Source of the DNA: Ulota crispa
Taxonomy: Eukaryota; Streptophyta; Bryopsida; Orthotrichales; Orthotrichaceae
Reading direction: 5' to 3'
Length of the DNA: 64,000 nucleotides
Assembly (NCBI GenBank): GCA_963920765.1
Contig: OY987243.1
Location: forward strand, 21,757,419-21,821,418
Each line of letters starts with the position of its first letter. Positions within the stretch are counted from its first letter, which is position 1. Below are positions 17,252 to 64,000 of the stretch, in pieces. The notes beneath the pieces were generated by a model. The model was not told where the DNA came from and ran no database searches. It was given only the letters and a program-made list of their open reading frames with translations. The position numbers were made by a program, and so were the translations under genes.

Positions 17252-20200
17252 ATGGCAACTAAGGAAAAGCCTCCACTAGAGAATCACTTAGAGTGGGAAG
17301 AACCTAAAGTAAAAAATAAGGATTGGAGAGTATGGGGCAAAAACTTGATGAAAAGGCGCAACACAAAGCAACTCATTGAAGATGCACTTCTCATGCGCTT
17401 CAAGGATCAAAGGACAATTCAGGTTTTGGTTTCATTTTTTCTTTTATGATTGATAAAATAAATATGACAAATTTACCTAATCTTGGACTATACAAAGTCC
17501 AAATGTAATTCATATGAAAAACATCATTAGGAAATCTCTATATGACCCTCAATGTTAGGAAATCTCTATATATATTAGAAACAAAGTCTAGAACACTATT
17601 TGTTAATTGGGAAAAACGCTTTCCTAGAATGGATTTTGAGATATTGAATTTTGCAATTATGAGAATATTTTGGTGATTTAGAGTGAGTTTATTGATAGTT
17701 CCCTCAAGATATTTCATCATTGATGTTAAGTCTTGAAGATATCATCATACAATCCCTCTAAATCACCTAAAAACTCTTAAAAATAAAAAATTCGGAAGTC
17801 TTGAAATTAGGGTTTTTTCCCAAATCAACAGATTTTGCGTTCTGGAGTTAGTTTAATATGACATGGATGGTTTATAGAGACATATCTATTAAAATTACAA
17901 ACTGAATTTGTTTTTCATGTGAATGATTCTAAAGTAGAAATTTTTTGTGGTTGGTCTTTGAGCTCTGCATATGCATATTAAAGGGGTTATTTTTCATTTT
18001 TTAAATTTTACAAGAATGTTACGTTTCAATTCAAAGTGAAGGGAAGAAAAACAGATACTCTCTTCATTCAGGTAGATTATTTCAGTATTCTTTGATTTAA
18101 TGTTGGCTTTAAAGTCAAGCTGATTAAATTTATAAATTGGTTTGTGAATGATGGAGTGGATTTGAGATTACACTACTTGTATTACATACATAAAAACGTG
18201 TGTTAAACCCAACAAAATTCATAATCAGCATATTTGAAGGACCTGCAAGGATTGTTAGTTAGTTATAGTTGGTTGTCTTTTCTTAACCCCTGAGCGCCCA
18301 GGCCATTTTCACCAAAATTAAGCTTTTAGGAGATCTACAGCTTTGATGCATCATATCTTAGTTAATTGGATGATCCATAAAAAGTGATCATTAAAAATAG
18401 TGAAACACCTACCTTGAAAATATATTGCATATTTTGGGAACAATTGACCGCGGGAGATGGGAGACTATAACATTTGAGCTTGTGATGGTAAAATCTCATT
18501 TTTGGCAAGTACTTGCTATTTAATGATTTTTACAAAATTCTATAAGCCCTAATTCATCTCAATTTTTTTGAGTAGCAAGATTAGATACAAATTCACACAT
18601 TCGCAAATTATTGAAGATTTTACTTCTTTGTAGGTTAAGTTTTAGGGCTTCAAATTTGCTATTGCATGGAAAACAATGAACAAAACAATTGGTGAGGGTT
18701 GCCCCAACAAGGGATTAAGAACATGCTTGAACATTTGCTGGGCTATCTCAAAGCCCATGCAATGGAGCTTGCAATGAGTATTGATTAGTTGTAGCTTGTA
18801 AGACATTGCTGGCCACCACTTCTGTATGATGTTTCATATGATATTTCACCCAATTAAAACTCTTGAGGCACTTGTATAAAATTTGACTTGCCTTGCCATT
18901 ACTCCACTTGCATGAACCATTAGAATACCTTGATAATTGTAGTTTATAGCAAGGTCAAAAAGTTAGATCTAGTACCTCAAGCAAGCATGTGAAATCCTGT
19001 GAGGACCATTTTGGTCCTCTGGGACTTTCAGGGGTTAACCCTTTAACGACCGTGGTTGATTCTAGGGTGGGCAATTCTTTGTATGACCATTTGGGGGAGA
19101 TTTTAGGGTAATTGAATACAAATGTCTACCACAAATCTGACCGTACAAATGGACGTATCTTGCAGGGTTTAATGTTATGCATCATGAATTATGCTCACTC
19201 TTTAGTTTTTATGGCCATCTTTTTGCATTCATTGATGTATTTTTAGCCGGTACTCTTGTATTTTTTCAACCCTTTGGCCACATGCCACCTTAAATTGGCC
19301 TGGTTATTGTCCTAAACTCTTCACTTTCCAATTCCCTAAACATGTCCCCTCTGCCACATCATCAAATTCCTTGACACACTCTCTCTACAAACTGAAAAGA
19401 ATAAAAATCTACCAGGAACTGGTCGACCAATCGTTAAAGGGTTAAAGCCCAATTTCAAAACACTAGTCTTTAATGTCTAAAGAGAACTGACATTTAGTAT
19501 ATTATCAGCTGACTGAAATTGTAAAAAATGGGTTGAATTTGAAATTATTGGCTACTGGTCCAATTTTTCAAAAAAACCAGTTGTAGTATATTACAATATG
19601 AATATAGGAAATATCTTGTGCAATAAGTGAAAAAACCAATTGAAAATGGGGGATGCCAAAATTTAGCTGGTGAAGCCCAAATTTCTCCTCAAATTTTGCC
19701 GATCTAAATTGATTTTGGTCATTTTTTGACAATAAAACTGGAAAAAGAACTGATTGGTTCATTGTTAGCTCAAAAGCATACCAAATTTCCATTTGTAAAA
19801 ACAAATGTTATGGCCTTCAAATCAACTCCAATTTTGGGAGATAACATGCTTAATTCAGAAAAACTATAGTCAACAAGCATCCCCATCTTGGACTATTTAC
19901 ACTTTTTACTTTGTTTTTATTTCATTTTTTATCCTTTATTGCCGAGATGGTTTTGCATTTTGTGAAAACTTTGTTATTATTTCCAATTAGCTCTATGAAG
20001 CTTGTCATGAAAAAGATGTTTTATTCCACATTTGATTAAATTAGCACTAATCAAAAATCCACAAGCATTAACCTGAAAACTGGTTTGATTTGCAAAATAT
20101 TTAGAGATACTTGCAAAACATCCGCAGATATGTCCAAATCAATAAATATACAAAACTTTGGAAAAAATACATACAAAATACTAAAAAATCTTCAATTTTC

Positions 20201-23200
20201 AAAAATATATATAGAAAATCCACAACTACATGAATAGTTCATAACTAGCCAAATGTGTTATCTTTTTCTTTGCTTTTCTTTTTAATCAAAAACACCAAAA
20301 GGGCATACAAATGTTATCAAATGCCAAAAAAAACAACTCTGAGCAATTGAGCCATCAAATGCATGGATAGGGTTCCAGAAGTGGCCTCATGAACCTCAAC
20401 AGATTTATTAATTTCTTGATGAAGAATGAGTTACTTTCTTTTCAGCTCTTATTTATTTCTCTTGAAAAACTAAATTGTATGAATCTTTGTTAAGAAAGTT
20501 AGTGATTTTTAAATAAGAAAATTTCACATATTGTCAATACACAATCTTCATGTTTAGCAATATCTTAATTTTGAAACTTACTAGATTTTTTTTTTTGAGA
20601 TTTAGTTTTTATACAAAAATCTATGATAATAATTAACACAACTTCATAAAGTGCAATCTACATATGGTGCTATATATATTTTTTAATATATAAGATGAAC
20701 ATTATTTGTTTTAAATGTTTTAGTAGCTGGTGTAAATTTTTTGTTTTGGTTTTTTATCTGGTTATTAAAAATTCTTATAGGAAAAGGTCAAAAGGGAATT
20801 CTTTGCTAAGAAAGTGAAGGAAATGTTGATTTTGAGGACACAGCAACGGGATATCATCTTTGAGGTACCTTTTGAAGTTTTCTTTGAGGAACAAAATCCT
20901 AAGGATGTTCTTGTCCAACTATTTGTTTCTCAATTCTATTTCCATGAGTCCATTGTAAGTTGAAAAAGTTAAAATTGGTTGTTTGAAAGTATTTTAAACC
21001 CATGTTTTTAAATAGATACCTTTTGGAATAAGTATACTTATTATTATCAGTAAGAAAAAAAAATCAAAGAAGGAAAACGGGATTCATTCTAGTTGCGTTT
21101 GTTTGAGAAGTTAGATTTGGTGAAAGCCTTCCATTGAACACAAACTAAGTCTAAAAATTTTAAAAAACTAGTCACTACAACAAAACTAGACATTTTATGA
21201 CTCTCACTTATAACTATAGTGAGTCATTTAGAATTATAAATGACTCACAACAATCATAATTTAGAATCATAAAATGTCCATTTTGTTATAGTGGGTCTAA
21301 AACTCTAAGATCTTAATCGGGTAATACTTTACACAAGGGCTTTGTGTCTTTTTGCAATACAATTGGCTAATTGCTAAATACCAAGTCGATTCTACATGTG
21401 GCACATGATTAGTGATTCACGTATATGAGAATTTTTAAAATCCATGGTTAAGCTAGCTATAGGAAAATTTGAACAATTGATTCTAAATAATCTTCCCAAG
21501 TGTTTTTTGAAATATTTTTTGACCAACATATTTCTTGGCTACAAAATGGAAGATCTTAAGTGAATTGACTTGGTTTGTTTGATTATTTTTCAATGCACTT
21601 GCCATAAAGAATGTGGTTTTATTGTCCAAATTGGCATTCAATAAAGGTTTGTATATTCAAACCAACAATGGGCCTAAATGCGTTATCATGTTTCATTGAT
21701 ATACATTCAAGATCCTTTGACATGTAATTGTTGTACGTACTTCTGGTTTTAAATTCACTATTAACTTTGGGTGTACATGAACTTGCTAACAAATCAACCA
21801 TCTCAATTGATTAGTGAAAAGTCGTCTTGAGACTAGCTCCAAATGAGGGGCCTTTTGGAAGGTTAAATATTAAGCCTATAAAATTCATAGCATTTTTTTA
21901 GGCGACATTGACAGCTGAGGTCCAATCAGAAGCCCTCCAAATTTTAAGAGATTTGATTAGACCTTAGCTATAGGTGTCGCCTAAAAAAAATGCGCTACTA
22001 TGAATCCTTGTTTGACATTGAATTATATTGTGTAGAAATATCATGCTTCTATGCATGCAATGAAATTGAAGGAGCAATATGGAATAGCAATGCAAAGAGC
22101 TTTACGGGTTTGAAATTGCAACTCTTGCTTGTCAATCTTGTATTGCAAAGCTAAACTAAATATCACATACTAATCTATTTAAAAATGAATAAACATTGGC
22201 AATAGAATTGCCTCTAATTATTTATTGTAATTTTTAGAGTTGTTCTAATAATTAATGATAAACACATTTACGCTAAAATTGATACCAATGTTGCATCTAG
22301 TCAAGTTATTGAAAGAAGTTGTGAATGCAGGCTTCATGGCACGACATCCTTGGTCTCCAATTTTTTGCTGAAGAAAAAGATGAAAAAATACGCATGAGAA
22401 TGGTGAGTTTCTAACCTTATATACTTCTAGGACAATAGCACTAAAATGGGTCATTTTATATTTGGGCTCATAATTATGTATTTAGCCTAGTATGGTTGAA
22501 ATGAAAAATAAACAAAAATTTCAAAGATTTTTTTTATGGATTTTTTTATAGCAATAGTAGATGTTGAAACAACAAATTTGTCAAATTTGTAAATTTTCCC
22601 AAAAAATGCATCTATATAAAATAATTACTTTAACACAAAGCCTATTTGACCAAATATGAACAATAGGGAATTGCATGTTTACCATCGAATTGGAGATTCT
22701 TACTTTTTGACTTATAACCATACGCTTTGCTTGTAAATCTTCTTTTATCCTAATGACCCTTGTCTTAGCCTTATGATTCTTGAGTCTCTTAGCCTTATAA
22801 ATATGCGCTTGGCCTTTGTACAATTGAAAAGACTCAAAAGTGACATTTTCAAGTATTTGTTATTGGATTCATTGTTCACAAACTCAAGAACAACATCAAA
22901 AGTAGAAATATAAGAAAAACTCAAAACTTTTCAAATGTTTTCCAAATTTTTCACTTATTTGTGCAAAATATTTTAAAAGCAAAGTGGATTTGACCTAGTG
23001 CTAAAATTGGGTAGTTTTGTGATATGATATGTTTTATGCATTTTAATACAATTCCAAGACAATGATGCTTGGATAAGGTCAACCTTTGTAAAAGAAACGT
23101 TTGGATAGTGTCAAGATCTTACCCTCTTTTTTGTGTTGTCCTAGCCAAATGCAATGTTTGTTTATGGTCAATGCTAGGATATGGCCAACATTCATTTTTC

Positions 23201-26200: not shown

Positions 26201-29200
26201 CAAACTCTTCCACAAGGTGGTGTATGGGTGCAACCTCCCATTTCATAAATTAGTTGGTGGCTAGCTTGCAAGTTTGTAGATTTTTGCAATCTTAGAGCAT
26301 CTCTTGCCACTTGCTATGTGAGTCCCGCAAACTAATATTCTTTGTGCCCGTAATAGCTTGCAAATTTTGAGTCCCCAACAACATTGTAGTCATTAATATA
26401 CAAGCACAAGGTCTCCACAATTAGCCATAGCCACATCAAATTCTATGTTTCAGTAGGGGACCTTTACAGCACCTTGTTTTTGTTGTCACGTACAAATTTG
26501 ACCATTGCATGACATGGAAGCTTCAGCAAGCAAATCCAAACCCTAAATTTTTCGGGTTGCAAGGGCACTTCTGGCCCTACCTCCATTTCATATAGTTCCT
26601 GCCATTGTCCCTCCAAACCTTCTTTGCCATGACGTGGGAAAGTTGGTGACAGGAAATGCTCTTACATACTAGCTAACTTTGAAAAGAGAATGTTACATAA
26701 AAGAACGTGAGATCCCAAAGATACCAATAATCATTACTCAATTACACAAATTAAAAAGTTTAAATTTTTGTCTATTGCAACCACCAACTCCTTGACGGGT
26801 TTTGAAGCCTTACAAAGGGGTATTTGCAACAAGCAATTGCGTTGTTTTTAAGGATGTGGTTGTTGCCAACAATTTCATTTATTACAATGGTTGCAAATTA
26901 ATTTTTCTTTCTTTGTAAAGTTTTAAAAGAAACAATGTTTAAAGCTTTGCAAAAAGACCTTTTGCGAGTGTTGATTGTTCTTGGGATTTGCAAAAATGGA
27001 ATAAAAAAGTAGATGCCAAAACCTTTGTAAAATTACATGTTTCAAACTTTATTTGTTTATAGTGAAAAGAATCTTGCAAATTGGTGATATGGCATTTGCC
27101 GAAACTTGTTTTTCTACAAAAACATTAAATATTCAACGAGGTTGTGTTTAGCTTTGGTCTGCATTTAGGAAAATATCATAGTGCCATTTATAAAGGAAAA
27201 ATTGGATCTTACGTAATGTTAAATGCTTTAGAATAGCCCATGTATTCAAAATTTTAAAAAATATCAATTTGATTGATTACATTGTAGAAAACACAACATA
27301 TTCATAGAGTCAAATTTTATAACACAAGCATTAATGAAGTTTGTTGTATGTGTTGAAGAACATTTTATTTGTTGATCAAAAATTTAATTAATTTAATTTA
27401 GACAACAGAAAGCCTCCAAATGATCCCATTGTAGTTTCTAAAAAAGAATAAAAATCAATTTACAGTAGACTCCTTAGTAATTTCAGAGTTTTTAAACATG
27501 TGAATCTTAATTGAAATGCAGCATAAAACTTTTCCAAAACAATGTTATAATGGAATTTTTTTGTTTGCACATTGTTGCTTGAATGATTGTTTTTCTTTTA
27601 GAAAAACGATTCATAATTACATTTTAAATTCGATTTGATGAAAACTCTCGGGTACTTTTGCGTGTATATGCATCTTAAGGAAATATTAAATAAAATATTG
27701 AATCCAAAATATTGTATACGATATCAAAATTTTGGCTCTTCTTGAATTTCTACATTGTTCTTGTTTTTCTTTAAAAGAAATCCTTAAATTACTTTAATGA
27801 TGTCAGGTTGATATTCAATCAAAGCGTAAACGGAGATGGCAAAAACACTACAACTTTTGTTTTGATATTATTTTACAGGTGCTTTAATTATATATTTATT
27901 TTTTCATTTCATGCTTTATTTGTACAATTAATTGTAGTCCTTATAAAATGTATTCATGGATCTCCATATGTCCTTTAACCCTTAAATGCTCAAGGCACCA
28001 CATTTTGGTGCCAACAATATTTTGAAGTTTAATAAAACCTAACTGAGTTTGCTATTTTTAATATTTATTATTTTAGAATTATTCTTTTTGAAGTCTAGAT
28101 TTAGCATCAAAAACTTGATATTGAAAACGATTAATTGTGAATTTTCTATTCAAAATTTTGTGTAAAGGTGTTCATTGCACACTTGACTTTTTTGGTGTTG
28201 AGAGCTCATGAAAATGAGCCTCAAATACACTAGATCTTGGAGAAAACTTCACACTAGAAATCCATTTTATAAAATTGTAAAAGAGATTATGAAAAGCCAT
28301 AAATGGATTGGAGTTACGTATGTTATGTCCTTTTACCTCATATTTTTGTAGTTACCAACATTTTAGATTTGACATGTGAAAAGAAAATTGAAAGACTTGA
28401 AGTCATTTTTGCAGTTTTACACCCTCTTGATTAAACATTATAATCTTTCAATTCAAAAGCAATATTATTGTGTTTTCTTTTCCTATGTGATGTATAACAT
28501 ATCTAATTTGAATTTGTACGGTTATCATTTAAAAATTTTGATACAGCTTATCAAAATGTTGACTTTTTGTTCAATTTAGAGCAAATTCCTATAAACTCAA
28601 AAAAACCTTGGGTATTTAGGGGTTAACTACAATGCACAAATAAGCGTCTAGCTTATATATACATTTTGCCAACTTGAATCAAAGTTTCTATTTGCCTCTT
28701 AAGTTTGGAAAACCATTATATAGTTCATTGAATTTTCACATACCCCTATAAAGATAATTTGTTGATCATGTTTTTGTTAGACGAAATGCATCCCTTGTAT
28801 TACAAATGATTGGAGAAAAACATAAATTTTACAAAAAGCTTTTATCACATGCAAATATACATGGATGGCAAAAATTCAAGTGTGTATAGCGAATAATAGT
28901 TTCATTTTTTTCTTTTAAATCTTTGTTTTGTCAATAAATAAGAGGCCAAGATATAAGATCGAACACTCACTATATACACGACTAGTGTTTATACATGTTA
29001 ATGACCATCCAGCATATGAAAATTTTAAGTGAATTTTAATAATAGTAACTTGTTATATCTTCAAAACTCTGTAATTGTGCTATTATTTGAAGTATTTGGA
29101 CTTATTTTCTTAAAAATAAAAATCACGTAAAATCATTTCATCATCATCCAGTTTTTCCCATTTCCTTCTTTTCAACGGTGCAAATGTTTCATTCCATAAT

Positions 29201-41200: not shown

Positions 41201-41567
41201 CCTTGGTATGTAGAGTAGTTGCAACGCAAAATTTGGTTTTTACATATATCATTTATATTATAAAGCCTCAAGTGCTTGCTTGCCTGTCTCAGGAAATTTA
41301 AAATTCTCTATTAACAACAAAAATTCAAATTTCTATATTATAAACCATCCACCCAAAATTTGAATTTCAAAGAGACTATTAGAGGTGATTTTATTGTACT
41401 AAGGGCTCACTCAAAACCAAAGCAAGTACAAAAAGTATAACACCTCTTGAAGTAGATACTATGTTAGAACAATGATATAATAAAAATTTGGAAAATACAA
41501 TTCCTTTGAGATTTGTAACAACAAATAACCCAAAGATCAAAAAATAATAATGAAAATGATGATGATG

Positions 41568-41605
<38 letters not shown>

Positions 41606-47600: not shown

Positions 47601-50600
47601 GATCATCTTGCCAATAGTTTTACTTATGGAATTCAACTTTTGGAAATAAAACGATTTAGAAGGGTCTCTATTACCAAATGATAAGTAGAAGTATAAACTA
47701 ATCCTATGTGCTAACAACACTAAAAGAAAGACAAGGATAAACAACTGCCACAAATTGTCATGATTAGGTCACAATAATTGCCTTACAAGTGCACAACATT
47801 TGCACAATTACAATCTAGCCGTGCAATTGTTGTGTAGTTGTTTGTGCACTTGTAAAGCAGTTATTGTGGCCTAATCATGGCAATTTGTGGCAATCATTTA
47901 TGGCATGTTTTTCTTCTAGTGCAAAAAACACCAATCAATAATTGACCATTTGTCTAACCTTTAGTACAAAAAATCAAACTTTTTTTGAAATATGCAATTC
48001 TGATGAATATACTATAATAAAAAAAGAAAAACTTGGAAGCAAATTATATATTCAAATATAGCTTTGTGTTACAACCACAACAATGAATGACTACTCAATT
48101 TTAAATAACTTTTTAATATAAATTGAGTTATTTTGGTTTACTTTTCTATTTTTTGTTTTTTGAATTATGAAGGGTTGAAGACTAGTATACCAAAATATAA
48201 ATTACAAGATATTATGTTGTTGATTGTTATTTCTATCAGTTTTTTAAGAAGGTACTATTAATTGCCTATGTTTTTGTAAACCACAAGTTTATTTTTAGGT
48301 GTTGAGTGAGGCCCTAGCAAATGCATGCCATTTATTGGATGTCATTGCCGGTAGAGCTAATAAAGGCAAGAAAATGCAACCACGGAGGCATAGAGAAAGA
48401 AGGATGAGTGGACGTCGAAATACATGGATGAGAGCAACAAATCCCTCCTTTCGAGAAATAATTCATCCTGATTTGGACGTAAAACCCGTCATTGCCCGTG
48501 AACACCAAATCTTTTACTATCGGCTTGAACTCCTTGGTACATTACTAAGTACCAAACAAGTTTTTTTTCCTTTTCATGTTCGATTTATGATTAAGTACAT
48601 TTACAATGTAATAACAATCCAAATGCAAAATATTGCAAAATCTCTTGGTATTTTGCATATGTTGTATGAAAAGTACTAAGAGATCTACTCTAAACATGGG
48701 AGGTTTATGGAAATATTTGCAAATCTATGTTTCTCAACATTGGAAAATCTACGTCTTCATCAAGATGTTTAACCCTTTAAGGACTGGTCGACCTGTTTGT
48801 GGTTGATTTTGACTCTTTTCAGTTTGTAAAGAGAGCATGTTAAGGAATTCAATGACGTGACAAAGGGACAGGTTTGGGGAATTGGAAAGTGAAGAGTTTA
48901 GGACAATAACCAGGCTAGTATGAGGTGGCATGTGGCTAAAGGGTTGAAAAAACTAAAAGAGTACCGGCTGAAATACACCAATAAATGCAAAAGAATGGCC
49001 ATAACTACTAAAGAGTGAGCATAATTCATGATGCTTAACACTAAACCCTGCAAGATACTTCCATCTGTATGGTTAGATCTATCGTAAACATTTGTATTCA
49101 AAAGTTTGAAAATTTCCCCCAAATGGACATACAAAGGATTGCCCACCCCCCAAATCAACCATGGTCCTTAAAGGGTTAAGGTAGGAGCACCCAATACCAA
49201 CAATGTATCTAATAGTGTCACTCTCTATACAAGGTGGTTATTCTTCTCTACACAAGGTGGTCGTTTTAGAAGTTAAATCTGGCTAAAACATAAATAGCTT
49301 ATTGTTGTTAACCATAATGATAAGTGGTGTACCTAGATTTACCTTCTAGAATGACTACCTTGTGCAGGGAATGACACTGTAGGTATATTGTTTGATCCTA
49401 CCGTATGTCTTTCAACATTGGGAAATTAATGTCTCTCAACATTGCAAGTCCTCCCATGTTTAACAAAAAAAAATCCAAAATCACATAATTAGTTCAAATT
49501 TGGTTAAATATGACATACATGTATTCCATTCAATTTCTTATCTTTGTGCAATATCATAAGCTACAAAAACACATTCAAATGTGATATAGAAACAAACCAT
49601 AGACAAACTAATTGTAATAGAATTTGCAGTGTCACAAATAGTACTTGAAAGAAAAAACCAATACAAAAGAATAATACAAAGAACTAGATTTATATGATCT
49701 AAGGAGAGATTTGATAAAGAAAATTATCAATTACTCCCTCTATCCCAATATAAACCTTCAAATTAGGCATAGTTCTTGTCCCACTAAAAAGCTCCATTTT
49801 GCTAATTTCAATTGCTACAAAAGTCTTTGTTAGTTTCAATGATCTCATGGGGGCAAGTTAAGCAATTCAAGAGCATTACTCTCCTAACAAGCTTGGCCTT
49901 GCCCATATGAGGTACTATTGTTGCTACTGATCTTTAAATCATCAATAATGAGGAGCTAGCAACATGTACAAATATGGTACTTTTTGCATGGAATTTGGGT
50001 AGCCAAATGGCAACATCAAAGCTGGAGATTTTGCATACATTTTGTAGATGGTATATTGATTCTAGAAAACATGTGTCATTAGTACAAAGACTAGAATAAT
50101 GAGGAGCCAGTAGCCTTCACAAACTATGCACAAATATGATACTTTTTGCATGGAATTTGGGTGTCTAAACAGCAACATAAAAACTTGAGATTTTGCAAAT
50201 ATTTGGTAAGTGGTATATTGATTCTAGAATGCATTTGTCACTAGCATAATGACTAAAAATATGATTATTCCCTCATGGAGAAGTTCTTTGGAGCTTTATA
50301 ATGGGACAGAGGGAGTGGTAAATAATGAGATTGAATTTGTGCTCAAGTATTTTACTTACAAATAAAGTTGAAACAATGTTTTTGATTGATAGTATATATT
50401 ATGTGGTAATAAAATTACATGAGACCTTGGGAATTCCTCAACGGAAGGAACTTATTGATTTGATGTAGAGTTTATCTCTTAACAAAGACATCAAGGATAG
50501 AAGTTGCCATCTAGGTTTGTGAAGCTTAAATAGTTGAGTCAGTCCTAAGGCTTCATTCACGTCGGTCTTCCAAACATTAATTAATTTTTCTTGCTAGAAC

Positions 50601-53600
50601 AAAATAATCTTATATTTATGCATTAATATTCACAACCCACGCTTGAAAATCTATATTTTCAATATATCACACTCTTTTAACATCAAATGAACATGTTATA
50701 TAAGAGTTATGCACTTGAATTTTGCAAAACCTTTTGGTTTATAAATTCACGTATTACAGTTTTTGACATAACCCTTATACGTTTTGTTAGAGCAGCAAGA
50801 TTAGCATGCAAGTACCTAGCGGATCTACAACCGGTTTGTGATGGTGCTTGGGGACATATGGATGATTGGCTAATGAAACGTTGTGATGTATTATTCTAGC
50901 CTCATAAAGCTCATATATATCTGAAAATCAATTATACACAAGGGAATTGTTAAAGTAACACCCTCATATTCTTAATGCAACATCTCATATTCTTAACCCT
51001 TGAGCGCCGGGTATACTCATGAATACACGGCCCAAGTGTGTTTGCCGGGGACAATTTTTGTCCCCATGGGCGTTTAACTCTTGAGCACTCCAGAGAAAGT
51101 ATACTTCCTCTGAAAATTTTGAAAATAGGTACCTAAGTCATGTTAGTACGATGTACTAGAACTAGGGTAGGGTGGTACAAGGGTGACATGAAGTGGGGTA
51201 CCCGGGTTCTTAGTGATTATTATTGGTTTCACATGAGTTATCTTAGTTTTGTAAAATTTGTAAAAACCACAAGCTTGTGAGTGTGAGTAGGTTTGCCAAA
51301 ACCAGATTTTGAGCTGGGCGCTCAGGGGTTAAGGGTTAAAGATGGATACCCCTGAAGTTTGAGATATTTGTATAGATACCCCTATTTTTCCAAAAATTGC
51401 ACAAATATCTTTGGACCATAAATTTTAAGCATTTGTTTTATTGTGTATGTTGCCTCTTTTTCCCTTTGAGCACATGTTGTTTTTTTAAAGTTGCATTGCA
51501 CTCCTTGCTTCAACATTGGTCATTGAGGAAGTAGCCTTGCAAAACAAAACAAATGCATGAAAATCATGGTCCAAGGGTATTTGTGCAATTTTTGAAAAAC
51601 TAAGGATATCTATACAAATATTGCAAATTATAGGGGTATCCATTTAACTTTCCCAATTCTTAACCCCTAAAGGACCATTGTCCCTTTGGGGGACACATGG
51701 GATTTTAGGCACGTACCTATGGCTAAACTACTTTGTGTGATTTTCTGAAACGTTTATTGAAGTTGAGGAATTCAAAGATTTACGTGGGAATGTAATTCAC
51801 AAAACCAGACCTATCTGCAAACTAAAATTTCTCATGACTTTCATCTCATCTATCAGAATTGAATGATTCAAAACTCCCCATGTCTATATAAGTCTAAAGA
51901 ACCTATTTCAAATTTTTATTTGAAAAAAACAAAAGTTTTAAAGAAGTTTTTGGCTGCCCATGGAGCATCATTTTCTAGATTTTCATTTTTAACTTCTTTA
52001 GTAAATGTTGGAATGAAGAAAAGTTACATTCCCATGTAGATTTTTGAATTTCCCACCTTCAGTAAAAGCTTCAAAAAATCACGCAAAGTAGTTTAGCCAT
52101 AGGTACATGCCCAAAATCCCATTTGTCCCCCAAAAGGGCCCTTGGTCCTTTAGGGGTTAATGGAACACCTCATATTCTAATTATTGCAACACCCCAAGGT
52201 GGGTACATGAGTTAACTCATGTTTTCTCCTATCTTTTTTCAATTTTTTTTTACGTTCAACATTTGTGCTTTTTTAAGTTAAAAGGATGAACATTGATGTG
52301 CACACTATGGTGGCAACATTCACACGTGCCCACCTCAATATGTTTTTTTAACAAAATGGTGTGTTACTTTAACCCTTAAATGACCGCTGGGTGGCTGTGG
52401 CCTGCCCACACTGTAGGTTCAACAGTAATTATATTGTAGCTTCAACAGTGTTTTGGTAGATGGGCACCAATAGTATTGTTTCTAAAAATTTCAAAAGTCA
52501 ATAGTGCATGCTGACCTCATGAAAAAGGACAGCTTGGAACCTAACACCATGATTTTGAATTTTCTCACAATTTGGGTTACCTAAAAATATAAGCATATTT
52601 GATAAGATGGTTTTTTACCTTGTATGATGGATCATGTGTTTACGGTCACTTTGGAAAAAAAACAGATGAAAAGCGACTTTTTTTTTGTTGTACAAATTTT
52701 TTTTTCAGGGCCAAAGGACGATAATCGTCCTCATGGCGTTTAGGGGTTAACAATCACTTATAGACAATCTTCAATTATTCATTTCAAGCTAAATTTATAT
52801 CTCAATTGCCACAAAGAATTGCTCTCAAATTTTTTATTTATCATTCACATAACACCGTGGTGTTCTCATCTTTACAAAATAATTTAACATGAATTGCTGT
52901 AGACATCAATGAAATTTCCTATTGTTAATTTTGGGTTTTTGGCTTCTTTAAAAAAAGAATAGGACGAATCAACTTTGGTTGAAGAAGTTAGATCTGTGAT
53001 TCTTGAAGCCGCCCAAGAAAGTATTCCATTATGGTACCGTGTGTGGATGGAAAGTGAATTTAAGATTGAAGAAGAAGAAATATTAAAGGTGAATGTTTGT
53101 TGAAATTGCATGTAAATAAGTTAAATAAACTTCAAATTTGAAACAGTCGTATAATTTTAAATGGTAGAAGGTGTGGTATCTTAAGGAAATAGTACTTCTT
53201 GAGATTTTTGTACCACTGGAAAGCCCATAACAATTCTATATATTGCAAACAATTATTGTAAGTGCTCAAATCCACGTAGATAAAGCTCAAGAAACGAACT
53301 CCAATTTCCTATCCAATCACTTGCTAACCCTCATTGTAGACTTCTTACAAGCAACTTGTGTTTCATTTCCAAGCCTCTTTGCACTACCATAAAGAGTTGC
53401 AATCTTGTCTCCTAAATAAGATTATTTTATCTTTTGAGGTTCTATGTTTTGAGGTTCTATGTTGCCATACAAAGTGAAAGTAAAATGACATAGTGACAAT
53501 GGGTTAAGGGAACTTAAGTTTTGAATACACTACTGTCAAAATATTATACCATGACAATTTGAATAATTTGTATTTTCAATTTTGCAGATAGAGCATATAC

Positions 53601-54634: not shown

Positions 54635-54680
<46 letters not shown>

Positions 54681-60600: not shown

Positions 60601-61720
60601 AGTTAGTTTATTTATCAAATACAAAATGATTTTATCTACTACATTGTTGCTTTTGGTATATTTCAATGAAGGGCCATGCCTTCATTGGTGGCCCCTAAGA
60701 GAAGTTAACAAAATTTGGCATGCCCAATTTGCCCTTTGAACCAAAAAAGGCTCATAAAATACTAATAACTTTTGAAGTGTGAGGTTTGATTTCAATATAA
60801 AAAAATGGACTCTTGTATAGCCCTTGCATAAATCTGTTTCATTTCAATAAAAATTGGACAATTGTGTAGCCCTTGCATAAATCTATTTCATTTCAATAAA
60901 GAATTGGACAATTGTGTAGCCCTTGCATAAATTTGTTTCAAAAATAAATTTCAAACAAATTGACAAAAAATCCCAATAAAACAAGCCTACCCAAAACCCA
61001 TTTTGTTCCCAATGGGGACAATGGGCTTTTAGGGGTTTAGGGAGACACAATGCAAGTCGAGAGAAGGCATACTTCAATATAGAAGAACATACAAAACTAC
61101 TTTTTTCTTGTATTCAATCACAAGCTCATGTACATAATTTATAACATGCCCCTTTAATAGCATAAATCATCAATGCAAACCCCATCATATTAAAAACAAA
61201 TAAACTCATCATACATAAGCTAAAAAAAGCTGATTTATGTTGATTTTTAGAGGAAGGTTATGAAGATGGTGAAGATTTTGAGGATACAGATAGCGACAAT
61301 CCACCAGAAGAGACATATGATTTAGCAAAATCTATAAAAATCTATGTATTTTCGTTGTTGGAGAGAAGCAGTCAACGATGCACAAAACACAAGCCAAGTG
61401 GCCTTGCATGGCAGTCATTGCTTTTGTACCTTTGCCGTGATGCATGTTTTGAAACTGCACTTCGGAAAGCTTTCACGGTTCTTGCAAACACCATGTAGGA
61501 CAAAAACAAAAAAAACTCTATAATATAAAAATATATAAACAAAGAAATTTTAAATAATGCATTATATATACAATTTTTGTGTGAATATAGTGAACTGTGG
61601 GTTCCAAAACGTAGTGCATTGGAGAATTGTGTTATAGAGTATCAATGTTTTGTTCCAAAATATCGCATCAAGCTAGTGGGTAGTTTGAATCAAGCTTTGA
61701 CATTATGGTTTAACTCCTAA
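17252..61720 (+). CDS. SPEF2: SPEF2/CPC1 homologue, flagellar central-pair protein (gene-level entry; exons in the segment entries)
   Basis: Thirty-five + strand exons chain in phase across 44.5 kb and give about 1,526 residues before the sequence gap and about 145 after it. The protein is known from Chlamydomonas (CPC1, C1b projection of the central pair) and mammals (SPEF2, sperm tail formation, IFT20 binding). Support: N-terminal coiled coils, an adenylate-kinase-like domain at about residues 515-780, SGKQVEQQSLEDLLDERTST...MLVQAELDRHIESC resembling the SPEF2 EEQSL...LMQVELDRF segment, and a C-terminal DDFLNIRLWF...SLLLYLCRDA region. The total length is near the roughly 1,800 aa of mammalian SPEF2. 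Two parts are uncertain: the ATG at 17252 is only the first in-frame Met (no CH domain found), and the end is ambiguous, either TAA 61718-61720 inside a transposon or a donor at 61676. Introns are unusually long and full of MITEs. Its presence implies motile sperm or zoospores. Confidence 0.85.
17423..18282 (+). other. SPEF2 intron 1, part without a named element
   Basis: AT-rich intron sequence after the donor at 17423. I see no exon, gene or bounded transposon before the TTAA element at 18283. The same is true of 19446-20780, the downstream part of this 3.4-kb intron, apart from weak similarity between about 19500-19700 and 3160-3370 (GCTGGTGAAGCCCAAAT-type words). Confidence 0.4.
18283..19038. 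mobile_element. TTAA element, CCCCTGAGCG end type
   Basis: TTAA 18283-18286, element 18287-19034 (748 bp), TTAA 19035-19038. Left end CCCCTGAGCGCCCAGG, right end CTGGGACTTTCAGGGG. A perfect 19-nt palindrome GAGGACCATTTTGGTCCTC lies at 19001-19019, exactly 15 nt from the right end. The right TTAA is also the left TTAA of the next element. Non-coding. Confidence 0.8.
19035..19445. mobile_element. TTAA element, 403 bp, CCCTTTAACGACC end type
   Basis: Element 19039-19441 between TTAA 19035-19038 and TTAA 19442-19445. Ends are CCCTTTAACGACCGTGG and CCAATCGTTAAAGGG. The palindrome TCTACCAGGAACTGGTCGA (19408-19426) sits 15 nt from the right end. An inverted copy of identical length lies at 48773-49175, sharing interior sequence such as CATGATTCATAATTATGCTC-like and TAGTTTTTATGGCC-like stretches in opposite orientation. 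Confidence 0.85.
21173..21293. mobile_element. 121-bp hairpin MITE with CACTACAACAAAA ends
   Basis: Left arm CACTACAACAAAACTAGACA pairs with right arm TGTCCATTTTGTTATAGTG. A second dyad inside pairs ATGACTCTCACTTATAA-type sequence with TTATAAATGACTCAC. The CACTAC...GTAGTG-like termini are common in plant non-autonomous DNA elements. It lies in SPEF2 intron 2. Confidence 0.75.
21883..22005. mobile_element. 123-bp hairpin MITE with ATTCATAGCATTTTTTTAGG ends
   Basis: ATTCATAGCATTTTTTTAGG at 21883 mirrors CCTAAAAAAAATGCGCTACTATGAAT ending at 22005. A GGCGACA/TGTCGCC core and an internal GGTCTAATCAAAT dyad are also present. The element ends 30 bp before SPEF2 exon 3 (22036), so it lies next to the likely branch-point region of that intron. 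Confidence 0.75.
23995..24142. mobile_element. MITE, TACTACAAGAAAAATG ends, without nested insert
   Basis: TACTACAAGAAAAATG at the left and TCTTATAGTGA at the right. The interior AATGATTGCCAATGTTCACAATGACTAT pairs loosely with AAACATTTGCAATCATTGTGGAC. The same inner words recur at 37205-37563 and 37910-38262, where a second element interrupts them, so this copy looks like the unfilled form. Confidence 0.6.
24766..24997. mobile_element. TTAA element, 224 bp, CCCTTAAATG end type
   Basis: Element 24770-24993 between TTAA 24766-24769 and TTAA 24994-24997. Ends are CCCTTAAATGTTAG and CTTGACATTTAGGGG. A short palindrome AAAGGCCCTTT starts 14 nt from the left end. No coding capacity. It lies in SPEF2 intron 6. 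Confidence 0.75.
26294..26664. mobile_element. MITE of the GAGCATCTC type
   Basis: Left end TAGAGCATCTCTTGCCACTT, right end GGTGACAGGAAATGCTCTTA. These mirror each other imperfectly and match the end motif seen at 13994, 42685 and 56105. About 370 bp, GC slightly above the surrounding intron. Non-coding. Confidence 0.55.
27975..28626. mobile_element. TTAA element, 644 bp, CCCTTAAATGC end type
   Basis: Element 27979-28622 between TTAA 27975-27978 and TTAA 28623-28626. Fifteen bases in from the left end lies a 19-nt palindrome GGCACCACATTTTGGTGCC (27994-28012). The right end reads CTTGGGTATTTAGGGG. The interior is homologous to the element cut by the right window edge at 63586 (shared TTCTATTCAAAATTTTGTG-like, GGTGTTGAGAGCTC-like and ACTAGATCTTGGAGAAA-like words). 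It begins 96 bp after SPEF2 exon 8. Confidence 0.85.
28627..29777 (+). other. SPEF2 intron 8 remainder and comparable unannotated intron stretches
   Basis: AT-rich intron, no exon or bounded element seen. It contains an imperfect inverted repeat: GTTTATTATATGAACACTCAAGG-like sequence around 29275-29400 against a CCTCAGGTGTGTCT-ending arm at about 29500-29650 (words GGTTACAATC and GATTGTAACC, AAATCCAAATGTGAA), probably an old foldback element of about 380 bp. The other long intron stretches, 31294-32369, 35926-37204, 39849-40911, 43119-44046, 47373-47717 and 53682-55926, likewise show no gene. Confidence 0.4.
34193..34438. mobile_element. TTAA element, 238 bp, CCCCTAAAGGATG end type
   Basis: Element 34197-34434 between TTAA 34193-34196 and TTAA 34435-34438. 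Long matching ends: CCCCTAAAGGATGTTG and CAACATCCTTTAGGGG. Imperfect palindromes lie about 14-15 nt from each end (TGTTGTACTACA at 34211; GCCAACACTTTTGGTAGGC at 34401-34419). Its right TTAA is shared with the next element. Confidence 0.85.
34435..35349. mobile_element. TTAA element, 907 bp, CCCTTTAAGGACC end type
   Basis: Element 34439-35345 between TTAA 34435-34438 and TTAA 35346-35349. Left end CCCTTTAAGGACCAT followed directly by the imperfect palindrome GCAACCATATCTTGGTCGC (34454-34472); right end GGCCGTTGAAGGG. This is the uninterrupted relative of the nested element at 11747-13240. Non-coding. Confidence 0.85.
37205..37563. mobile_element. Composite MITE: CACTACAAAAA element containing a GGTAGG element
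   Basis: Outer ends CACTACAAAAAAATTAGTCC and CTTTTCTTTTAGTG. Inside, TTAA 37279-37282 and TTAA 37497-37500 flank a 214-bp inner element (37283-37496) with ends GGTAGGTATACCCAATACCA and TGGTATTAGGTATACCTATC. Outer arms match those at 23995 (ATTTGCAA-CATTGTGGACC). Confidence 0.75.
37910..38262. mobile_element. Composite MITE, second copy of the nested pair
   Basis: Outer arms CACAATACAAGAAAAGCGTG and GGGACACATTTTTTTTTATAGT. The inner element 37985-38179 has ends GGTAGGAGCACCCAATACCA and TGGTATTGGGTGCTC. TTAA 38180-38183 flanks it at right; the left flank is TTGA, one change from TTAA. The inner element occupies the same relative position as in the copy at 37205, only about 350 bp upstream. Confidence 0.7.
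38292..38402. repeat. Hairpin repeat, ATCATGGTCAAATCTAC family, copy 1
   Basis: ATCATGGTCAAATCTACAAA and the following AACAAAAATTATGA pair with TCACAATTTTTGTCAACTTT and GTAAATTTAACCATGGTTTTT. The same family recurs, better preserved, at 46278-46400. Confidence 0.65.
38929..39848. mobile_element. TTAA element, 912 bp, CCCCCTTAAGGAG end type
   Basis: Element 38933-39844 between TTAA 38929-38932 and TTAA 39845-39848. Ends are CCCCCTTAAGGAGCA and TTGGTCCTTTAGGGG. The interior shares words with the elements at 51664 and 61714 (GCTTTGAATCATTCCGTTTG against GCTTTGATTCATTCCATTTG). The subterminal palindrome is not clear in this copy. It begins 128 bp after SPEF2 exon 17. Confidence 0.75.
41557..41605. 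repeat. (ATA)n microsatellite
   Basis: About 16 tandem AAT/ATA triplets preceded by three GAT triplets. Another run of seven AAT triplets is at about 60555-60576, and a (TA)n run is at 54637-54675. Confidence 0.95.
42685..43118. mobile_element. MITE of the GAGCATC type, 434 bp
   Basis: Left end TAAGAGCATCGCCAATGTAGCC pairs with right end GGCTACATTGGGGATGCTCTAA over about 20 bp with two mismatches. Non-coding; lies in SPEF2 intron 19. Confidence 0.75.
43119..44046 (+). other. SPEF2 intron 19, stretch of degenerate GTAAAA repeats
   Basis: Between about 43500 and 43830 a short motif of the form TGGGTAAAAAC(T/A) or CCTTTTACC recurs many times at irregular spacing. No bounded element or exon is seen. 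Confidence 0.45.
45756..46135. mobile_element. GGTAGG element, 372 bp, TTAA-flanked
   Basis: Element 45760-46131 between TTAA 45756-45759 and TTAA 46132-46135. Ends are GGTAGGAGCACATTAATTGG and TGTCCATTTCAGGTCAACCTACC. It shares the outermost GGTAGG(AGCAC) with the elements at 37283, 37985 and 49180 but has a different interior. Confidence 0.7.
46278..46400. mobile_element. Hairpin MITE, CACTACAAGGAAACCATGG end
   Basis: Nearly perfect foldback: AACCATGGTCAAATCTGTAG and onward through TGACAAAAATTATGACCTAA pair with TTAGGTCACAATTTTTGTCA and CTGTAGATTTGACCATGATT. The axis is near 46342 in ACAATATATTGT. Arms are about 55 nt. Same family as 38292-38402. Confidence 0.8.
47718..47921. mobile_element. 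204-bp hairpin MITE with CACTAAAAGAAA / TTTCTTCTAGTG ends
   Basis: The arms pair over about 85 nt: CACAAATTGTCATGATTAGG with CCTAATCATGGCAATTTGTG, and TTACAAGTGCACAAC with GTTTGTGCACTTGTAAA. The central loop holds a smaller dyad. CACTA-type termini; non-coding. It lies in SPEF2 intron 25. Confidence 0.8.
48769..49179. mobile_element. TTAA element, 403 bp, inverted copy of 19039-19441
   Basis: Element 48773-49175 between TTAA 48769-48772 and TTAA 49176-49179. Left end CCCTTTAAGGACTGG followed by the imperfect palindrome TCGACCTGTTTGTGGTTGA (48788-48806); right end ATGGTCCTTAAAGGG. It is exactly the length of the copy at 19039 and lies in opposite orientation. Its right TTAA is also the left flank of a GGTAGG element. 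Confidence 0.85.
49180..49402. mobile_element. GGTAGG element abutting a TTAA element
   Basis: Left end GGTAGGAGCACCCAATACCA directly follows TTAA 49176-49179. The right end TTTGATCCTACC at 49402 is degenerate and no TTAA follows. The interior resembles the element at 37985 (GTCACTCTCTATACAA, GTGTACCTAGATTTACCTTCTAGAATGA). Confidence 0.65.
49734..50315. mobile_element. Stowaway-like MITE, copy 2
   Basis: Begins CTCCCTCTATCCCAATATAA and ends TTTATAATGGGACAGAGGGAG; 582 bp, nearly the length of copy 1 at 12212-12792. The interior carries the same imperfect 150-bp direct duplication (TTTTGCATGGAATTTGGGT twice). It lies in SPEF2 intron 26. Confidence 0.85.
50993..51332. mobile_element. TTAA element, CCCTTGAGCGCC end type, possibly two fused copies
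   Basis: TTAA 50993-50996 and 51329-51332 flank CCCTTGAGCGCCGGG...GGGCGCTCAGGGG. An internal junction GGGCGTTTAACTCTTGAGCAC at about 51068-51086 looks like the end of one copy meeting the start of another. Palindromes start about 14 nt inside each left end (51011 and 51092), and a strong GGGGACAATTTTTGTCCCC lies at 51047-51065. Confidence 0.65.
51336..51647. mobile_element. TTAA-flanked foldback element with about 90-bp arms
   Basis: Element 51340-51643 between TTAA 51336-51339 and TTAA 51644-51647. AGATGGATACCCCTGAAG...AAATTGCACAAATATC pairs with GGTATTTGTGCAATTTTTG...TATAGGGGTATCCAT. Unlike its neighbours it lacks CCCT ends, so it is a separate family that also uses TTAA. Confidence 0.75.
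51660..52160. mobile_element. TTAA element, 493 bp, CCCCTAAAGGACCAT end type
   Basis: Element 51664-52156 between TTAA 51660-51663 and TTAA 52157-52160. Left end CCCCTAAAGGACCAT followed by the palindrome TGTCCCTTTGGGGGACA (51679 onward); right end TTGGTCCTTTAGGGG preceded by GTCCCCCAAAAGGGCCC. Inner sequences also mirror each other (AAAATCCCAT, GCCATAGGTAC), giving long imperfect inverted repeats. Confidence 0.85.
52369..52750. mobile_element. TTAA element, 374 bp, CCCTTAAATGACC end type
   Basis: Element 52373-52746 between TTAA 52369-52372 (shared with the outer element to the left) and TTAA 52747-52750. Right end CATGGCGTTTAGGGG; exactly 15 nt inside it ends the palindrome AGGACGATAATCGTCCT (52715-52731). 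At the left, TGGGTGGCTGTGGCCTGCCCA forms an imperfect hairpin from base 16. Confidence 0.85.
53682..55926 (+). other. SPEF2 intron 29, no further exon seen
   Basis: 2.2 kb of AT-rich intron with a (TA)n run of about 40 bp at 54637-54675. No bounded transposon and no splice-compatible exon were found by reading. Confidence 0.4.
56105..56850. mobile_element. MITE with GCATCTCCACCGG ends, starting at a splice donor
   Basis: Left end GAGGGCATCTCCACCGGTTG at 56105, two bases after the end of SPEF2 exon 30; right end GCCAACCGGTGGAGATGCTC, about 746 bp. GC is higher than the intron around it. A further CCGGTGGAGAT at about 56770-56780 may be a third, internal end. No product recognised in its ORFs. 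Confidence 0.7.
56851..57388. mobile_element. Second GCATCTCCACCGG MITE, head-to-head with the first
   Basis: Left end GAGCAACTCCACCGGTTGGC, right end GGCCAACCGGTGGAGATGCTC. With the preceding element it forms a palindrome at 56801-56897 (arms of about 47 nt, axis near 56849). Inside are three tandem 33-bp units at 57119-57217, each starting CATGCTGCCATG and ending CATCC. Confidence 0.75.
57389..58352 (+). other. SPEF2 intron 30 remainder
   Basis: AT-rich intron sequence with no bounded element or exon seen. A pyrimidine-rich tract with repeated TTTTTGC precedes the acceptor at 58351-58352. Confidence 0.4.
58729..58928. other. Assembly gap of exactly 200 N
   Basis: Two hundred consecutive Ns interrupt exon 32 of the SPEF2 homologue after 22 readable bases. 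The round length suggests a placeholder, so true distance is unknown. The missing sequence must hold the rest of the exon and a donor leaving phase 1 for the exon at 59618. ORFs that run through the Ns are artefacts. Confidence 0.98.
58929..59617 (+). other. Intron 32 of the SPEF2 homologue, right of the gap
   Basis: The first 150 bp after the gap are GC-richer than the rest and contain a dyad (GGGGAGGCCTTACG...TAAGACACCTCCCC, and CAAAATAAGATAGCC near CCTTATTTTGAAAAAGGC), probably a transposon end whose partner is in the gap. The rest is AT-rich without features. Confidence 0.45.
59618..61720 (+). other. SPEF2: SPEF2 segment 5: C-terminal exons 33-35
   Basis: Exon 33 is 59618-59722 (FFMVVTTKQPGDPSEG, TLDDFLNIRLWFDKLD), exon 34 is 61251-61494 (acidic EDGEDFEDTDSDNPPEE, then SLLERSSQRC and AWQSLLLYLCRDACFETALR), and exon 35 starts at 61591 (ELWVPKRSALENCVIEYQCF). 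Phases agree throughout: exon 34 ends AT before GTAGGA and exon 35 supplies the third base, avoiding the TAG that would follow without splicing. The LWF...LLLYL pattern is typical of the SPEF2 C-terminus. Exon 35 either ends at 61675 before GTGGGT or reads on to TAA 61718-61720, which lies in a TTAA element. Confidence 0.72.
60039..61039. mobile_element. TTAA-type element, 993 bp, CCCCTAAACACCG end type, with internal tandem repeat
   Basis: Element 60043-61035. TTAA 60039-60042 flanks the left end; the right flank is TTTA, one change from TTAA. Ends are CCCCTAAACACCGAAGCCCA and ATGGGCTTTTAGGGG. The palindrome TTGTTCCCAATGGGGACAA (61003-61021) ends 14 nt from the right end. A 49-50-bp unit (TTGTGTAGCCCTTGCATAAA...) is repeated about 2.6 times at 60813-60941. 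Confidence 0.75.
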
Positions 61721-62648: not shown

Positions 62649-62787
62649 TTCTACAAGGCCAAATTTACTGTTAGTGATAGGTGATAAAGAGTGGGGCTGT
62701 TTTATACCAATGTGTTGAGGCTATCAAAACCTGGCGTCATTTGTTTTGAAGTTTTGGCACATATGGCTTCAAAAAATGTCTTTGATA

Positions 62788-63185
62788 CTATAGGTTGAGA
62801 GCAGATTCAACATGTCTATGCCAAATCAATTATTTTTGAGAAAAACAAATTCAGCATCCGCTTTTGTAATTAAACAAGATTGGACACTTTTAGAAAAAAT
62901 TGTTGTTATTTGATATTCAACCAAATTTTTTAATAGAATTAAACATTTTTCTAAGCGTTTTCTACCTTCTAAAATGAGCCCTTGATATAAAATTTGCAAT
63001 AGATTGAGCCCTCTTGGAATCAACCTTAAATTTCCATTGTTAGTTAAGCCTAATGTCTTTTATAATATTTGCCATTTCAGTTTTTTGATTTGTTTGACAT
63101 TGGGCATTTTTGAAGAATAATTTATGAAATAATTAGACAAAATTTTGAGGAATTATTTTATGCCGAATCTGCTCTCAACCTACAG
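62788..63185. mobile_element. TA-flanked MITE, CTATAGGTTGAGAGCAGATTC ends
   Basis: CTATAGGTTGAGAGCAGATT at 62788 mirrors AATCTGCTCTCAACCTACAG ending at 63185, with TA immediately outside both ends (62786-62787 and 63186-63187). 398 bp; Tc1/mariner-like by target site. Non-coding. Confidence 0.75.
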
Positions 63186-63581
63186 TACTTGTTACAATAA
63201 TAATGTAATAGGGTTCTTTTAGTTTTTTGTTCCTCTTGTGTCTCAAGGTCTAGAGGCCATAACCACAACACCAGAATTCTAGAAAATGAGTGAAGGAGTC
63301 CAAGTAGAGTTGTTGCGAGTTTATTTTCATCTTGTGGTTCTGGCTATCACCAAAAAAACCTATTTATTAAGATAATTGTATATTGAAGACATCTAACAAT
63401 AACATTATATATTTTTACTTAGAAGCTATTTCTAAATTTTGATTGAGCATTAAGATTCCTTTCAAAGTTTGGCTATGACTCCTAGTTTAAAGGCCTTGAA
63501 ACTTATTTCAAAAATTGAATCAATGAGAAGCAAGGACTTGTTGGGGCTCCAAAACGCCTCAATGCCTTCTCTAAGCGGCCC
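63186..63581. other. No feature seen
   Basis: AT-rich sequence between two mobile elements. If the flagellar gene continues past 61675, further exons could lie here, but none was recognised. Confidence 0.35.
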
Positions 63582-64000
63582 TTAACCCCTCACCGCCCAA
63601 GAGGCCCAAATTGGGCCTCTCTGAATTTTATTCAAAATTGGGCAATCATTTTTCAAGATTTTTTTGTGTGATTATTTTTATTTTTAAATTCTTATTAAAA
63701 TCTAGTTTCAGCATTAGGAGTCTGGTTTTGAAAATGAATCAAAGTGATTTGTCTATTCAAGATTTTGTGCAAGGGTGTCCATTGCAAATCTTCACTTTCT
63801 AGTGTTGAAGGCTCTTGGAATGAGCTTCAAGTACATTAGAACTTGGAGAAAGAATCACATTAAAATTCAATTAAAAAAATTATAGAATAGATTTTGAGAA
63901 GCCGTAAATTGATTAGGGTTATGCATGTTATACTTTACATACTTATTTCTTTTTGGTACCCTCAATTTTAGGTTTGAAGTGCAAAAAGAGGATTGAAAGA
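63582..64000. mobile_element. TTAA element cut by the window edge, CCCCTCACCGCCC end type
   Basis: TTAA 63582-63585 then CCCCTCACCGCCCAA and, exactly 15 nt in, the perfect 19-nt palindrome GAGGCCCAAATTGGGCCTC (63601-63619). The following sequence is homologous to the interior of the element at 27979-28622, though the palindrome sequence itself is entirely different. The right end is beyond the window. Confidence 0.8.

Follow-up and report, generated by a model that had tools for sequence, protein, structure and literature searches.

Putative cysteine-rich-domain sites in piggyBac-type TTAA elements of Ulota crispa: variable palindromes at a fixed place on the left end

In piggyBac of Trichoplusia ni, a dimer of the cysteine-rich domain (CRD) of the transposase binds a palindromic internal repeat at base pairs (bp) 17-33, and the groove is narrowed around bp 25 (PMC7351741). 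The piggyBat CRD has a different fold and binds an unrelated imperfect palindrome, with its site at bp 19-30 (PMC11707139), and the piggyBat palindromes are confined to the left end (PMC11707139, PMC13405395). According to a 2026 preprint, fusing a piggyBat core to two piggyBac CRDs gives a protein that, aided by a partner protein, works on a right end into which the piggyBac palindrome has been placed (PMC13405395). Thus, CRD and palindrome form a modular pair in at least one instance. Here we analyzed a 64-kb stretch of the Ulota crispa genome (the window; G000:C2:21757419-21821418 of a 275-Mb assembly in 157 contigs), in which elements flanked by TTAA carry palindromes of differing sequence at one distance from the element end. 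From the sequence and from analogy with these systems, we conclude with a probability of about 0.85 that they are piggyBac-superfamily transposons whose left-end palindrome is a putative CRD-dimer binding site of family-specific sequence. The elements are mostly short non-autonomous derivatives. An earlier sequence-only reading of the window had proposed piggyBac-type elements with a symmetric, dimeric site at fixed spacing whose arms change together, which our results support. Its view that self-palindromic blocks at fixed spacing are not the textbook form is contradicted by the piggyBac repeat at bp 17-33 (PMC7351741) and the piggyBat left end (PMC11707139, PMC13405395).

Compared with piggyBat (Myotis lucifugus), the elements share the TTAA target and the restriction of palindromes to the left end; in piggyBat a CRD dimer binds them, and the outermost lies at bp 19-30 (PMC11707139, PMC13405395). 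A weak alignment suggests that a C-terminal CRD with similar Cys/His order may be a further common feature. However, piggyBat has three imperfect palindromes with neighbouring motifs 44 bp apart, whereas here there is a single one, longer, often perfect and different in sequence. TTAA and a palindromic 19-bp internal repeat centred on bp 25 are shared with T. ni piggyBac, in which a CRD dimer binds it (PMC7351741). Unlike the piggyBac repeat, which lies on both ends and is asymmetrically placed, the palindrome here has no second preferred centre between bp 18 and 75 and is missing from the right end of the gene-bearing element. The coral piggyBac-derived miniature inverted-repeat transposable elements (MITEs), named CMITEs, are short TTAA elements as well; they have CC[C/T]T tips, fall into several families and occur in tandem arrays. 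Their host is an animal, and the portion of PMC2872659 consulted describes no variable palindrome at a fixed position. Plant piggyBac elements are already in print, for example as a row of the repeat table for Ceratopteris (PMC6890710), and CRD-binding palindromes of piggyBac-type ends are an already known kind of site. As far as our searches of the open-licence literature show, what is new is the description, for one plant genome, of numerous distinct palindromes, often perfect, each single and restricted to the left end, together with signs of tip exchange.

Ends were numbered from the first C after TTAA (bp 1), which places the palindrome at bp 16-34, or at bp 16-32 in 17-nt versions. The sample for end statistics comprised the window and, from contigs C1 and C2, 20 stretches of 10 kb at even spacing (264 kb in all). 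It held 109 usable TTAACCC ends, which were not chosen for symmetry and none of which was dropped. An end was counted as symmetric when at least 5/7 arm pairs were complementary at a given centre, and the null came from shuffling the right arms among ends (600 shuffles). The excess of pairing at bases 16-34 over shuffled controls, proposed as a check in the earlier reading, was found at centre 25.0, where 17/109 ends passed against 2.1 expected and 0/600 shuffles reached 17. After redundancy was removed, 14/87 ends passed against 1.8 expected, and 0/600 shuffles reached 14. The piggyBac CRD site has the same centre, which supports the interpretation as a CRD-dimer site. Centre 24.0 was likewise raised (7/109 ends, 1.5 expected, 0/600 shuffles), matching the prediction from the 17-nt families; the usual centre is 25.0, and it is 24.0 or 24.5 in the TGTCCC and AGGACGA families. 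Centre 29.0 was raised in the redundant set (9/109 against 2.6 expected, 0/600 shuffles) and showed no excess in the non-redundant set (3/87 against 1.5 expected, 111/600 shuffles), so we took it for one large family. When centres 18 to 75 were scanned more strictly over 71 non-redundant CCCYW ends (about 0.1 expected per centre), 7/71 ends passed at 25.0, 2 at 24.0, 2 at 29.0 and at most 1 at any other centre; 60 shuffles never gave more than 3 ends at any centre. Thus no second preferred centre, such as the displaced repeat on the right end of T. ni piggyBac would give, was found between bp 18 and 75. Repeated inner palindromes of the piggyBat kind were also missing, since across bp 37-300 of 23 ends, where 1.42 recurrences of the arm hexamer were expected, there were 0.

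The genome gave 56 chlorophyll a/b-binding matches, which mark the host as photosynthetic, and a LEAFY SAM domain (best E 1.2e-27); as LEAFY is a streptophyte gene, the latter points to a streptophyte, probably a land plant. The pattern TTAACCCYTNNNNRCC occurs 9,751 + 9,805 times genome-wide against 263 + 248 for its reversed control, indicating that the elements form a major repeat class. Genome-wide palindrome patterns were written to begin at CCCY, with TTAA not required. CCCY-N11-GAGGAC-N7-GTCCTC was found at 218 + 226 = 444 places (control 0 + 1), and CCCY-N11-GGCACC-N7-GGTGCC at 79 + 86 = 165 (control 0 + 0). Patterns with arms crossed between these two families occurred at 0 and 0 places in the genome, and the GAGGAC palindrome moved two bases toward the element end at 3 + 3 = 6. 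The zero for crossed arms could by itself stem from family descent; the key point of the counts is that every family is symmetric at the same place.

All eleven palindromes that the sequence-only reading had listed in the window were found at their positions. The elements and palindromes are given below in window coordinates, with arm pairs counted out of 7 for 19-nt blocks.

11743..13244, forward strand: TTAA element of about 1.5 kb with a left-end palindrome (paired ends, 12/15 tip bases in common)
11762..11780, forward strand: left-end palindrome CGAACCATATTTTGGTTCG, bp 16-34, 7/7 pairs
18283..19038, reverse strand: probable TTAA element with palindromic end 19038 and non-palindromic end 18283 (pairing inferred; automatic pairing instead chose a closer CCT site at 18638)
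19001..19019, reverse strand: palindrome GAGGACCAAAATGGTCCTC, 7/7 pairs, among the GAGGAC pattern places (G000:C2:21776419-21776452:-)
19035..19445, reverse strand: TTAA element of 411 bp with palindromic end 19445 (paired ends)
19408..19426, reverse strand: palindrome TCGACCAGTTCCTGGTAGA (element strand), 6/7 pairs
27975..28626, forward strand: TTAA element of 652 bp with a palindrome on the left end only (paired ends)
27994..28012, forward strand: palindrome GGCACCACATTTTGGTGCC, 7/7 pairs, with identical arms at 165 places genome-wide
34192..34438, reverse strand: TTAA element of 247 bp with a weak palindrome at the 34438 end (paired ends)
34401..34419, reverse strand: palindrome, 5/7 pairs
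34435..35349, forward strand: probable TTAA element with a left-end palindrome (right end taken to be the non-palindromic TTAACCC end at 35349; automatic pairing instead chose a closer CCT site at 35099)
34454..34472, forward strand: palindrome GCAACCATATCTTGGTCGC, 6/7 pairs
48769..49179, forward strand: TTAA element of 411 bp related to 19035-19445 (paired ends, sequence comparison)
48788..48806, forward strand: decayed palindrome TCGACCTGTTTGTGGTTGA, 5/7 pairs
51660..52160, no strand assigned: TTAA element of 501 bp with the left-end (TGTCCC) family at both ends (right palindrome copy decayed)
51679..51695, forward strand: 17-nt palindrome TGTCCCTTTGGGGGACA, 6 pairs, centre bp 24
52369..52750, reverse strand: TTAA element of 382 bp with a palindrome at the 52750 end (9/15 tip bases in common)
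52715..52731, reverse strand: perfect 17-nt palindrome AGGACGATTATCGTCCT, centre bp 24
61003..61021, reverse strand: palindrome TTGTCCCCATTGGGAACAA (element strand), 6/7 pairs, adjoining an end with a decayed TTAA
63582..64000, forward strand: TTAA element extending past the window edge, its interior homologous to 27975-28626
63601..63619, forward strand: palindrome GAGGCCCAAATTGGGCCTC, 7/7 pairs

The palindrome belongs to one end of the element. We paired ends by nearest neighbour and counted an end as palindromic at 75% of pairs or more. Among the 35 paired elements in the sample, 10 had a palindrome at one end and 0 at both. For the 22 pairs with at least 11/15 tip bases in common, the numbers were 6 at one end, 0 at both and 16 at neither. 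The pairing contains some false pairs, such as 1458-2112 (3/15 tip bases, counted among the ten one-ended elements), and all 35 were kept. The earlier proposal of a palindrome at one or both ends therefore holds for one end (10/35 pairs) and fails for both (0/35). By sequence comparison, the ends without a palindrome group into separate families.

Two side observations concern particular ends. Both ends of the element at 51660-52160 fall in the same interior family, which makes it a natural left-end/left-end form. The non-palindromic ends at 35349, 39848 and 62648 and their relatives have, by eye, a loosely common TTTT-CAC-AAAA...AAAAC-like stretch at bp ~20-45.

The palindromes vary in sequence beside tips that vary little. 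Across 19 non-redundant left ends that had been selected for symmetry, CCCYT at bp 1-5, A at bp 7, G at bp 10 and C at bp 12 are largely conserved. The same ends carry 16 different arm hexamers at bp 16-21, a number that includes near-variants (TAGGAC, GAGGAC), frame shifts of a related arm (AGGACG) and one hexamer that may be chance (GAGAAA). Two palindrome positions are conspicuous, bp 21 (C, 1.41 bits) and bp 29 (G, 1.51 bits). We then aligned 20 centre-25 ends, picked for symmetry or kinship and with the centre-24 families excluded. In this alignment 6/7 pairs change on both sides, and the covariation score is 0.82, compared with at most 0.18 in versions slid by 1-3 columns. The 92% of paired cells is biased upward because of how the ends were picked, and G-U cells are no pairs in DNA.

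Relatives were found to differ by both routes that the sequence-only reading had suggested, compensatory change and swapping. The elements at 11743 and 34435 are 79% identical over 451 bp. These two and the end beside transposase locus L038 match at 79-82% from their first base onward, and their outer triples are CGA/TCG, GCA/CGC (one mismatch) and TGA/TCA. Similarly, the end L025_5134 and the element at 27975 match at 73%, again starting with the first base, and carry GCG/CGC and GGC/GCC, respectively. Methyl-CpG decay can produce the C-to-T members of such paired changes but not the C-G to G-C exchanges. For the second route, L011_2316 and 27975 match at 79% along 415 bp and differ in both tip and palindrome; their alignment begins at position 38 from TTAA, which is the last palindrome base. 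The elements at 27979 and 63586, earlier described as homologous inside with different palindromes, are so: 63582 and 27975 match at 74% over 338 bp (E 4.5e-51), with the alignment starting only at about position 88 from TTAA. Apparently, the whole 34-bp tip has been exchanged between families.

We also observed that neighbouring elements have one TTAA in common at 19035-19038 and 34435-34438, which is frequent genome-wide. The shared-TTAA junction RGGGTTAACCCY occurs at 2,797 genome sites compared with 41 for its control. If the two sides were independent, roughly 500 would be expected, an estimate that assumes ~3.6 million TTAA sites (uncounted). Insertion beside an existing end thus seems favoured, and such junctions could be feedstock for tip exchange. 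A doubled heptamer, TTAACCCTTAACCC, in some tips gives two TTAACCC starts 7 bp apart (51332/51339, L024:8195/8202, G000:C1:570475/570482).

A PF13843 (DDE_Tnp_1_7) profile search of the genome gave 120 matches, with 116 scored of 528 candidates, and nearly all listed matches contain stop codons. A transposase fragment matches piggyBac (6x67, E 1.9e-14) and piggyBat (9c0f, E 5.8e-14). The gene-bearing partner, whose ends the sequence-only reading had wished to see compared, was found at loci L034 and L032. These copies have 89% identity over 4,018 bp and 93% over 1,300 bp, and their alignment stops at a TTAA on either side of both copies; the L034 copy is a 5,230-bp element. Its left end reads TTAA-CCCCTTGAGGACTAT-GAGGACACATCGTGTCCTC, a perfect palindrome with its centre at bp 25, and its right end has no palindrome. 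The transposase gene runs left to right, encodes a C-terminal cysteine-rich (Cys/His) domain and contains stop codons in both copies. PF13843 therefore lies inside an element with both ends identified. Three marks of the piggyBac superfamily are thus present, namely TTAA on both sides, a PF13843 transposase and CC[C/T]T terminal inverted repeats, which in the superfamily measure about 12-19 bp.

Palindromic ends were also found upstream of the transposase gene at four further loci: GAGGACA...TGTCCTC at L038, GGGGACG...CGTCCAC at L035, a poor palindrome weakly of the L035 class at L036, and TCGACCA...TGGTCGA adjoining a decayed TTAA at L029. Judging from coordinates, they lie ~2.4-2.9 kb upstream of the PF13843 match. 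A candidate at L033 (AGCACC...GGGTGTC, 2.1 kb upstream) is doubtful. The initial 3-kb loci around 12 transposase genes held no TTAACCC end without mismatch, because the element is about 5 kb long.

Several features of these genes were noted in passing. The first ten PF13843 rows contain 19 TAG, 15 TGA and 5 TAA stops within the transposase matches, which we take to be the spectrum expected for decay at methylated CHG and CG sites. Pairs of matches in opposite orientation with identical or near-identical scores (G000:C7:18203169/18223004, G000:C10:676128/785346, G000:C2:36765124/36779670) suggest inverted duplications. The first 2.4 kb of the L034/L032 element, before the PF13843 domain, form a long region with open frames; Pfam searches on the N-terminal regions of two loci, including a piece of this one, returned no family.

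Taken together, these data make the following mechanism the most likely one. Dimerised C-terminal CRDs would bind the palindrome of the left end, which in gene-bearing copies is the end lying 5' of the transposase gene. The transposase core would bind the first 12-15 bp, which would hence be alike in all families. As the CRD dimer would read the palindrome, symmetry and fixed distance would be kept, and the sequence would be free to differ with each CRD lineage. The palindrome would in this way set which transposase moves which family. Families would alter their palindromes via paired substitutions and via exchange of the whole 34-bp tip.

The CRD loops offer a further lead. In piggyBat, R543 and E545 touch the palindrome (PMC11707139). 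We placed both residues in the loop that separates the second cysteine from the third, assuming a 6-residue numbering offset in a 3.6-bit alignment. This loop is G[RK]KQ in the GAGGACA genes (L032, L034, L038), K[RQ]KQ in L035 and L036, and KRRSFYI in L029. The correspondence fits co-evolution of CRD and palindrome, as a lead based on few elements.

Several observations weigh against these interpretations. A palindrome is at neither end in 25/35 paired elements, and 92/109 TTAACCC ends fail the criterion at centre 25.0. The earlier reading had named the absence of palindromes from most copies as one of the results that would speak against it. The excess is real, and the failing ends stand in a large chance background, since TTAACCCY occurs at 83,965 sites genome-wide compared with 36,312 for its reversed control. 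Many of them are chance TTAACCC sites, and the rest are right ends, palindrome-free families or decayed ends. Six of the 12 fetched transposase loci had no clear palindromic left end in the stretch read (L030, L031, L037, L039, L040 and, doubtfully, L033; just 0.9 kb more was read for L039 and L040). Both ends were read for L032 and L034, and boundaries at the other loci, taken from the left side, are putative. None of six CRDs reached the cut-off against Pfam. A Cys/His order, putatively the cross-brace pattern of piggyBat-like CRDs, is present in several loci, and the one CRD compared with 9c0f aligns at just 3.6 bits, which is weak. The loops of the GAGGACA and GGGACG classes differ mainly in the first residue, L036 has a poor palindrome, and because palindrome class tracks the tree of the transposases it gives no independent evidence of co-evolution. 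Finally, methyl-CpG decay alone can yield complementary-looking pairs and accounts for some of the paired changes.

We weighed three other explanations. The pairing itself might be conserved, as a hairpin or cruciform of a single strand (RNA or single-stranded DNA), rather than protein binding. The strong paired change would suit a stem, and the central 5-nt spacer could form its loop. However, bp 21 C and bp 29 G are invariant in the 20 aligned centre-25 ends while neighbouring pairs vary, which fits protein contact and not a plain stem. Moreover, the block is confined to one end and sits where the known CRD site lies, and an Rfam search of the window gave no family at the gathering score. 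We consider a hairpin very unlikely.

Even less likely, in our view, are functionless by-products, arising from template switching at quasi-palindromes, from methyl-CpG decay on both arms or from chance with family descent. The gene-bearing elements are indeed decayed, CpG-containing arms do become complementary TG/CA pairs, and within each large family the palindrome is passed on as a unit. Yet there is a single preferred centre across non-redundant ends, with 16 different hexamers in 19 left ends. The C-G to G-C exchanges on both arms (GGC/GCC against GCG/CGC in relatives 73% alike) are not CpG decay, and the palindrome is present in the gene-bearing copies too. Least probable of all is a site for a host protein, such as a silencer or a transcription factor dimer. 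From its place upstream of the transposase gene, the palindrome could regulate that gene, but a single common sequence would then be expected, whereas the families differ and the site coincides with the binding place of two solved piggyBac-type transposases. We therefore favour a left-end site for the transposase's own CRD dimer.

Beyond this, we tentatively put forward an extension that is possible but has the odds somewhat against it. The 34-bp left tip, comprising the core-binding repeat and the CRD palindrome, may act as a swappable address cassette. CRD loops and palindromes would have diversified in step into near-orthogonal pairs, and non-autonomous families would switch their master transposase by tip exchange.

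Terminal repeats resemble one another so closely that they reveal little about how the specificity between transposases and ends evolves, or about how short non-autonomous elements find the enzyme that moves them or switch to another. In this genome the part that confers specificity seems to stand apart, as a small symmetric motif that keeps its position next to conserved tips and comes in many versions. Should a CRD/palindrome code prove true, it would be readable from sequence, would predict the master for each MITE family and would yield many CRD/site pairs.

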